DNA of 64,000 nucleotides from Roseovarius sp. (GTDB lineage Bacteria; Pseudomonadota; Alphaproteobacteria; Rhodobacterales; Rhodobacteraceae), in contig JARGOC010000001.1 in NCBI GenBank assembly GCA_029212365.1, positions 62,001 through 126,000 of the forward strand, read 5' to 3'. Made by a program: the position numbers and the translations under genes. The stretch's first letter is position 1. Each line of letters starts with the position of its first letter. A model generated the notes under the pieces. It was not told where the DNA came from. It searched no databases and saw nothing but the letters and a program-made list of their open reading frames with translations. Positions 60,168 through 61,626 of this stretch are shown in pieces.

Positions 60168-60617
60168 CTAGAACCTGACAACCACCGCAATCACGATCAC
60201 AAACATCAAAACTGTCGGCACTTCGTTCATCAAACGATATGTCCTGCCAGAGAACCTGTTTTGACCGTTCACAAAATCCTTACGACGTCTGGCAAGCCAA
60301 TGATAATGCCAGGACATCACTATGACAGCAGCGGCCTTGCACCATGGCCAAATCAGCGACCAATCAACAATGCCCGGTGTAAACACCAACATCAGGCCAA
60401 AAACCCAAGTGGCGATCATTGCCGGATTCATGATCAAGCGTAGCAATTTACGCTCCATTTCCTGAAACACTATATCTTTGTCATCACCAGGAACTGATTG
60501 CTCTGCGTGATAAACATACAAACGTGGAAGATAGAACATACCAGCCATCCATGAGATCACTGATATGATATGGAAGGCTTTCGTCCATGGATAAAGGTAT
60601 GCCAGTAAATCGCCCAT
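60168..60617 (-). CDS. hemJ: Protoporphyrinogen oxidase HemJ
   Basis: 149-residue membrane enzyme of haem synthesis, with four hydrophobic helices. The conserved start YLYPWTKAFHIISVISWMAG holds the essential His, with YLPRLYVYH and RRKDFVN later. The ATG at 60617 has GGAG about nine bases upstream; a TTG 15 bp earlier is rejected. Rho follows after 124 bp. Its promoter must lie in the putative origin gap. Confidence 0.9.
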   Translation of the reverse strand: MGDLLAYLYPWTKAFHIISVISWMAGMFYLPRLYVYHAEQSVPGDDKDIVFQEMERKLLRLIMNPAMIATWVFGLMLVFTPGIVDWSLIWPWCKAAAVIVMSWHYHWLARRRKDFVNGQNRFSGRTYRLMNEVPTVLMFVIVIAVVVRF

Positions 60618-60790
60618 TAATTCACACTCCAAGCTGTCCTTCCTGATATAAATAAAAAGAAAGATTAGAAAGGATGATGATTTAAGTAGTGCCGCCCAAA
60701 GCTGTGGATTAATGAGATATAGGCAGTGTTGTACACAGAAAACCAGGCAGTGTATAACTCATGGGATCATTCTTCACTTTTAAAGCATTA

Positions 60791-60811
60791 AACTTATATA
60801 TCAATAAGTTA
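60791..60811. other. AT-rich inverted repeat with IHF consensus in oriC
   Basis: AACTTAT (60791-60797) and ATAAGTT (60804-60810) form a perfect inverted repeat. Within it, TATCAATAAGTTA (60799-60811) fits the IHF consensus WATCAANNNNTTR at every fixed position. IHF bends origin DNA in other bacteria. Confidence 0.6.
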
Positions 60812-60990
60812 TACCATTTATAAAAGTAGGATTACGCTGGATAAAACAGGGGTTAAACTAGGTCAAACTCCACTGTTCACATACAATGAGTTATCCTGTT
60901 CCACAGGGGTAAAACAACCGAACATATGCCTGAAATTAGACATGATCACCTGTTTGGCCAGTTCGGCATGGATTTCTCATCAAAGTGTTC

Positions 60991-61005
60991 TTAAACAATT
61001 GTTAA
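60991..61005. promoter_or_regulatory. Perfect CtrA box in the origin/maf upstream region
   Basis: TTAAACAATTGTTAA is TTAA-N7-TTAA with all eight consensus positions present, and the 10-bp core AACAATTGTT is a palindrome. It is 22 bp before the maf start codon. CtrA blocks initiation at Caulobacter oriC by binding such boxes. Confidence 0.65.
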
Positions 61006-61026
61006 ACTTTACACCGAGTTGTCCAC

Positions 61027-61626
61027 ATGAGCACTTCTCTTATTCTTGCTTCGGGATCTGAAACCCGACAGGCATTGCTGAGGCAAGCAGGTATCGCGCA
61101 TGAGGCAATAGCTGCGCGCGTTGATGAAGATGCGGTCAAACAGTCCTTACTCGCGGAAGGGGCATCCCCAAGGGATGTGGCTGATGCATTGGCCGAACTC
61201 AAGGCGCGCAAGATCAGTGATAAACACCCCGGTGCCATGGTGATTGGATGCGATCAGGTATTGAATTTTGACGGCAGAATTTTGTCAAAACCAACCTCCC
61301 AGAAGGATGTGATAGATCAACTGACAGCCATGCAAGGCAATTCGCATGAATTACTGTCTGCTGTAGTTGTTTGCGAAGGGTCACGCCCGGTTTGGCGGGA
61401 AGTAGCCAAAGTAACTCTGGTAATGCGACCCCTTAGCGGTGACTACATACAAGCATATGTTGACCGCAATTGGGACAGCATCCAACATTCGGTTGGCGGA
61501 TACAAATTAGAAGAAGAAGGCGTGCGCTTGTTTACACAAATCAAAGGTGACTATTTCACGGTTCTGGGCCTGTCGATGCTGAGCTTGATTTCATATCTCA
61601 ACACCCGTGGAATATTGTCACAATGA
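61027..61626 (+). CDS. maf: Maf/Ham1-type nucleotide pyrophosphatase
   Basis: 199 residues. SLILASGSETRQALL near the start, HPGAMVIGCDQVL and WDSIQHSVGGYKLEEEGVRLF are Maf motifs. The family hydrolyses modified nucleoside triphosphates; the exact substrate is unclear. The ATG at 61027 overlaps a DnaA box by one base, and no good ribosome binding site is seen. aroE overlaps by ATGA. Confidence 0.9.
   Translation: MSTSLILASGSETRQALLRQAGIAHEAIAARVDEDAVKQSLLAEGASPRDVADALAELKARKISDKHPGAMVIGCDQVLNFDGRILSKPTSQKDVIDQLTAMQGNSHELLSAVVVCEGSRPVWREVAKVTLVMRPLSGDYIQAYVDRNWDSIQHSVGGYKLEEEGVRLFTQIKGDYFTVLGLSMLSLISYLNTRGILSQ

Follow-up and report, generated by a model that had tools for sequence, protein, structure and literature searches.

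The window, i.e. the whole stretch of 64,000 nucleotides that was analysed, contains near its end a gap of low GC content between the genes hemJ and maf. Downstream of maf, which encodes a Maf family nucleotide pyrophosphatase, the genes aroE, coaE and dnaQ follow, all on the plus strand; rho and hemJ reside on the minus strand. The genes and the features detected within the gap are listed by window position:

60168-60617, minus strand: hemJ (TIGR00701, 145.1 bits, cut-off 138.05)
60618-61026, no strand: hemJ-maf gap, probable oriC (409 bp, GC content 36.7%)
60703-60711, minus strand: DnaA-like box TAATCCACA (TGTGGATTA on the plus strand), one mismatch, conserved at the hemJ end
60729-60737, plus strand: DnaA-like sequence TTGTACACA, one mismatch
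60799-60811, plus strand: exact match to the IHF consensus WATCAANNNNTTR, where the gap is richest in AT
60842-60856, plus strand: one-mismatch box TAAA-N7-TTAA, in the middle of the gap
60897-60905, plus strand: DnaA-like sequence TGTTCCACA, two mismatches to TTATNCACA, with GTTATCC just before it, within a conserved block
60968-60975, minus strand: weak DnaA-like core ATGGATTT, putatively assigned to DnaA
60980-60994, plus strand: one-mismatch box TCAA-N7-TTAA, its second half-site being the first of the following box
60991-61005, plus strand: exact CtrA-type box TTAA-N7-TTAA, a direct repeat with an 11-bp period that recurs in relatives
61019-61027, plus strand: DnaA-like box TTGTCCACA, overlapping the maf start codon by its final base, the A of ATG
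61027-61626, plus strand: maf (TIGR00172, 122.5 bits, cut-off 117.15)

The hemJ-maf gap as a probable replication origin

The GC skew was computed over the whole 376-kb contig carrying the window. Its cumulative minimum was found at contig position 122643, corresponding to window position 60643 and thus located inside the hemJ-maf gap. The DnaA-like box at the start of maf has counterparts in many relatives: 163 of 234 regions (see below for their selection) had TCCAC at most 6 nt away from the ATG of maf, 144 of them as TTNTCCAC, and only one of the 234 regions had TCCAC in a control slot. The weak core at 60968-60975 is represented by TGTGGATAA near the equivalent position of some relatives. 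Within the gap, neither an exact TTATNCACA nor a GANTC sequence was detected; richness in GANTC has been reported for Dinoroseobacter shibae in the accessible part of one study (PMC6473078). Near hemJ, there is an AT-rich purine run AAATAAAAAGAAAGATTAGAAAGGATGATG (60650-60679), well conserved in 18 aligned sequences of the same genus, which were picked by eye. The earlier note on this DNA had called the gap a putative origin, and the skew minimum, the DnaA-like boxes and the exact IHF-consensus match indeed give it an origin-like appearance. By these features, the hemJ-maf gap is very probably oriC.

Sequence and chance level of the CtrA-type box

A perfect TTAA-N7-TTAA box with a palindromic core, placed 22 bp before maf, had been proposed for positions 60991-61005. 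The sequence found there, TTAAACAATTGTTAA, is an exact match to this motif and the sole one in the 64-kb window; by its letters it corresponds to a full CtrA site. The box does lie just upstream of maf, the true spacer between its end and the ATG at 61027 being 21 bp. Together with the TCAA of the adjoining one-mismatch box, three half-sites are arranged in 11-bp steps (60980, 60991 and 61002). This adjoining box and that at 60842-60856 are sequence matches only.

Taken without comparison, the match at 60991-61005 is weak and modestly better than chance. The number of exact TTAA-N7-TTAA matches expected in the window was 0.37, and 33 of 100 window shuffles yielded at least one. When the 409-bp gap was shuffled 5000 times, an exact box appeared in 3.4% of the shuffles, and 3.5% equalled or exceeded the three boxes with no more than one mismatch that the gap contains. 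The genome (4.03 Mb) harbors 14 exact TTAA-N7-TTAA sequences, compared with 10 for N6, five for N8 and nine for N9. Genome-wide enrichment of the motif is weak as a support, since N7 is not clearly above the other three spacings. The N6 spacing is an unclean control because CtrA sites with 6-bp spacing have been described in Rhodobacter sphaeroides (PMC6180460).

Recurrence of the box upstream of maf in relatives

Regions upstream of maf were collected from 80 genomes of the same genus, 80 out of 95 named loci and 89 further genomes, each from a different genus. Within the genus, 84 genomes were searched and 81 had maf; G071 was left out, its maf lying 221 nt from a contig end. The 89 genomes were picked out of 364 matching genomes of the family in descending order of match, passing over a few; this sample therefore leans to closer relatives. 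Dropping duplicates with an identical last 120 nt reduced the 249 regions to 234 distinct ones, two of which were shorter than 420 nt (248 and 390 nt).

Up to 420 nt upstream of maf, the 234 regions contained 28 exact N7 matches versus 3.9 ± 1.9 in 100 shuffles, the largest shuffled value being 10. The other spacings from N2 to N15 gave two to 11 exact matches. The excess was milder if one mismatch was allowed: 112 of the 234 regions then had N7, compared with 50 to 94 for the other spacings. In the last 60 nt before maf, exact N7 boxes were present in 16 of the 234 regions, N6 in three and N17 in two, and the remaining spacings between N2 and N20 gave none; with one mismatch allowed, the corresponding values were 34 for N7, 20 for N6 and two to 12 for the other spacings between N2 and N13. 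The 16 proximal exact boxes belong to 12 of the 80 same-genus regions and to four of the 154 others (L041, L046, L064 and L182). Their position relative to maf is -35 to -39 in 15 regions and -25 in the remaining one. Outside the gap, not one exact N7 box was found in 478 kb of the 80 named loci, where other spacings occurred zero to four times. Because of this position- and spacing-specific excess in relatives, the box is above chance. Among the loci titled Ruegeria, none of 14 had an exact box in the 420 nt upstream of maf.

We also searched 394 genomes from 393 genera for a pattern composed of the box, TCCAC and ATG, which was found with N7 in 32 genomes and with N8 in seven. A reversed-pattern control (AATT for TTAA, hence with another base rate) gave, by hand count in the 394 genomes, 21 for N7 and 27 for N8. 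At least five of the 32 genomes (G000, G138, G092, G431 and G328) have the N7 match at maf. Out of 33 N7 places, nine were checked by tblastn, three of which lay at maf (G092, G431 and G328) and six yielded no maf match, and those of G000 and G138 were placed by their coordinates.

Other genera have an exact box at different places of the gap. In four loci (L190, L198, L199 and L088), an exact TTAA-N7-TTAA box fused to a DnaA-like TGTGGATTAA (CGTGGATTAA in L190) resides approximately 310 to 330 nt upstream of maf. CtrA-type and DnaA-type sites would overlap in these loci.

Conserved properties and history of the box

The nearest relative of the window in a tree of Maf proteins is G069 (SH-aLRT 96). 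All eight half-site bases are identical between the two, and one of the seven linker bases is shared. The half-sites are kept in G069 and in 14 further regions, while 218 of the 234 regions are without an exact box at this position, including 68 of the 80 regions from the same genus. Retention in close relatives applies to the nearest one, but it is not general (12 of 80 same-genus and four of 154 other regions at this position, and 28 of 234 regions at any place within the 420 nt). The palindromic core is present as well, as the perfect palindrome AACAATTGTT at 60994-61003, but it is not a common feature: a palindrome longer than 6 bp was found in only two of the 28 exact boxes, that of the window and an AT-repeat box located far from maf in L054 (10 bp each). 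Since such palindromes are nearly absent from the exact boxes, the common feature is the direct TTAA repeat one helical turn apart. A direct repeat with an 11-bp period is as expected of the predicted target of an OmpR-type regulator. A palindrome-binding factor, e.g., a Crp/Fnr dimer, was ruled out as the main reading by the same count.

Some other members of the genus have a CCTAAAA- or CCTAGAA-like sequence at the place of the box and no full box. In an anchored profile comprising the 78 of 80 same-genus rows that had the anchor, whose own conservation is by construction, conservation at the box place was modest. The Maf tree was calculated for the 180 of 234 regions with a usable Maf protein and is weakly resolved, with 71 of 177 inner branches open. 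On this tree the proximal box needs at least eight changes; given the weak resolution, it may have a single origin.

CtrA and its pathway in the genome

Descriptions of CtrA in Rhodobacterales portray it as a non-essential protein that mainly regulates motility and gene transfer. The genome encodes a CtrA protein (C45:101883-102557), which matched the NCBIfam equivalog model NF045991 with 423 bits versus a cut-off of 350. It is 76% identical to a Caulobacter CtrA sequence. The identification of the box as a CtrA box is supported by the presence of this gene and by the fit of the box to the D. shibae CtrA motif TTAAC-N5-GTTAAC, as given in the accessible part of PMC7232146. The ctrA promoter itself contains a one-mismatch site, GTAAC-N5-GTTAACC, 66 nt upstream of ctrA; this sequence is close to that motif.

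Four of the 13 other exact sites in the genome reside upstream of genes for a hybrid kinase, a PAS protein beside regB, LuxR and the autoinducer synthase LuxI. The hybrid kinase (788 aa) possesses HisKA, ATPase and receiver domains, and its best NCBIfam model is CckA (501 bits versus a cut-off of 1000); with this score below the cut-off we call it CckA-like. The PAS-domain protein (L270:3123-4640), for which the NCBIfam search gave no match, is probably DivL. In D. shibae, CtrA sites have been predicted at ctrA, cckA, divL and luxR2I2 (PMC4046655). The remaining nine exact sites, one inside a transposase gene, others near cobO, in the carA/glycosyltransferase gap, in the tgt/lon gap and near genes that are IclR-type, LysR-type, terC-like, unnamed or for a protein with a peptidoglycan-binding domain, have no clear link to CtrA. 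The site in the tgt/lon gap (L118; G000 C40:22224-22238) is located approximately 340 nt upstream of the Lon protease gene. At L120 (G000 C43:25591-25615), a TTAA-N6-TTAA overlaps a TTAA-N7-TTAA approximately 140 nt upstream of a luxR-type gene.

A possible role of CtrA at oriC

The CtrA-type site in the probable oriC is real, position-specific and limited to certain lineages, its binding and effect being predicted. Its sequence, its position and its recurrence are observed, and so are a CtrA gene in the genome and exact copies of the motif at genes of the CtrA pathway and of quorum sensing. From this we infer occupancy by CtrA, competition with DnaA and the sign of the effect. We give about even weight to the reading that CtrA genuinely binds this box in oriC, that the site is present in some lineages only and that it limits DnaA there. 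A CtrA dimer, aided by phosphorylation via the CckA-like kinase, would bind to both TTAA half-sites, which are spaced by one helical turn. Bound CtrA would hinder DnaA on the flanking DnaA-like boxes, i.e., ATGGATTT and, where maf begins, TTGTCCACA, and initiation would be limited when CtrA is active. With 21 bp between the box and the start codon, CtrA would sit too near to activate maf from -35, so that any influence on this gene should be repressive. With this geometry a CtrA-activated maf promoter is unlikely and was rejected.

Data from D. shibae bear on the direction of such an effect. The phosphorelay and autoinducers change the chromosome number of this bacterium, and cells with extra chromosomes are less numerous in its ctrA, cckA and chpT mutants (PMC4046655, as far as accessible). 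That the loss of CtrA lowers the chromosome number and does not raise it does not fit with a simple repression of initiation, but a model in which active CtrA represses replication has been proposed for the same species (PMC6473078). For the CtrA of Ruegeria sp. KLH11, an action on the cell cycle was considered improbable, and the authors cautioned that genes preceded by a site-like sequence are not necessarily regulated (accessible part of PMC3692519). The Ruegeria findings are compatible with a role limited to certain lineages and uninformative on the window.

The main rival of this reading is that the box is a CtrA site with a transcriptional function, i.e., that CtrA bound just upstream of maf represses maf-aroE-coaE-dnaQ and the position in oriC is incidental. 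We regard this as rather unlikely, though the distance of 21 bp from the maf ATG, the constant distance to maf (15 of the 16 proximal boxes at -35 to -39) and the overlap of Caulobacter CtrA repressor sites with the -10 region (PMC6180460) would agree with it. The position of the box is, however, just as constant with respect to the DnaA-like box that overlaps the maf start codon, and several genera have an exact box far from maf instead, for example at the distance of 310 to 330 nt noted above for L190, L198, L199 and L088. A scan of 60600-61200 revealed no forward sigma-70-like promoter, but it was crude and uninformative, as shuffles averaged 1.5 matches.

It is also unlikely, in our opinion, that the TTAA repeats serve the basic oriC machinery or an OmpR-type regulator other than CtrA. 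The gap is AT-rich, and the CCTAAAA- and CCTAGAA-like sequences in some members of the genus suggest a loose conservation beyond the TTAA motif. Against this explanation, there is a strong preference for exactly 7 bp among the spacings tried, boxes with other linkers occur in separate genera, and the CckA-like gene, luxR and luxI of this genome are preceded by the same exact motif. CenR, whose motif is TGA-N8-TGA (PMC9275681), was considered as a binder and rejected, as this motif does not match the box. A chance product of an AT-rich gap, where TTAA pairs arise often, is improbable and was already disfavoured: exact boxes in 3.4% of the gap shuffles and in about a third of the window shuffles, and 218 of 234 regions without a box at this place, would allow it, but the position- and spacing-specific excess in relatives and the lack of any exact N7 box in 478 kb of the 80 named loci outside the gap speak against it.

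A wider arrangement is conceivable, which we consider less likely than not. The oriC of some roseobacters may belong to a quorum-sensing/CtrA regulon, in which population signals would gate chromosome replication via direct binding of CtrA beside the DnaA boxes, and this wiring may have been gained and lost repeatedly between closely related lineages. We consider it because the same exact box occurs upstream of the CckA-like, DivL-like, luxR and luxI genes and in oriC. In the accessible parts of the open-licence literature, no report of a CtrA site at a Rhodobacteraceae origin was found. CtrA boxes in alphaproteobacterial origins are already known, and the candidate described here would be new for this group. 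The presence of the box in some relatives and its absence in others provide natural pairs with and without it for a direct link between CtrA and replication. Such a link is thereby testable in a group in which CtrA has been regarded mainly as a motility regulator.

Comparison with known systems

The control of the origin by CtrA in Caulobacter is the textbook case. The maf-aroE-coaE-dnaQ side of the gap is presumably syntenic with that of the Caulobacter crescentus origin, Cori, though the flanking genes are hemE and COG1806 there and hemJ and maf here. Cori contains five footprinted CtrA sites, compared with one exact and two one-mismatch predicted boxes in the hemJ-maf gap. Like this probable origin, it combines DnaA boxes, an IHF site and CtrA boxes of the form TTAA-N7-TTAA (PMC1914354); an IHF site of the Cori type is represented here by the exact consensus at 60799-60811.

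D. shibae has the same classes of predicted sites, at ctrA, cckA, divL and quorum-sensing promoters, and its CtrA affects the chromosome number. In contrast to the window, its predicted CtrA sites are in promoters, with none named at the origin in the accessible part of that report, which likewise states that CtrA was not found to be essential in the Rhodobacterales examined (PMC4046655). Hyphomonas neptunium has a CtrA pathway and a CtrA ChIP-seq site next to ori, so that occupancy is demonstrated there and predicted here (PMC7200025, accessible part). It is a stalked budding bacterium outside the Rhodobacteraceae, whose placement in the Rhodobacterales or Caulobacterales is debated, according to the title of a reference in the same paper. 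Rickettsia prowazekii and Wolbachia differ from the Roseovarius sp. in being obligate intracellular bacteria with hemE-based flanks. As in the window, CtrA, IHF and DnaA motifs have been predicted in their origin gaps, and, as in the relatives studied here, the number of CtrA boxes varies between related genomes (PMC1914354, as far as accessible).
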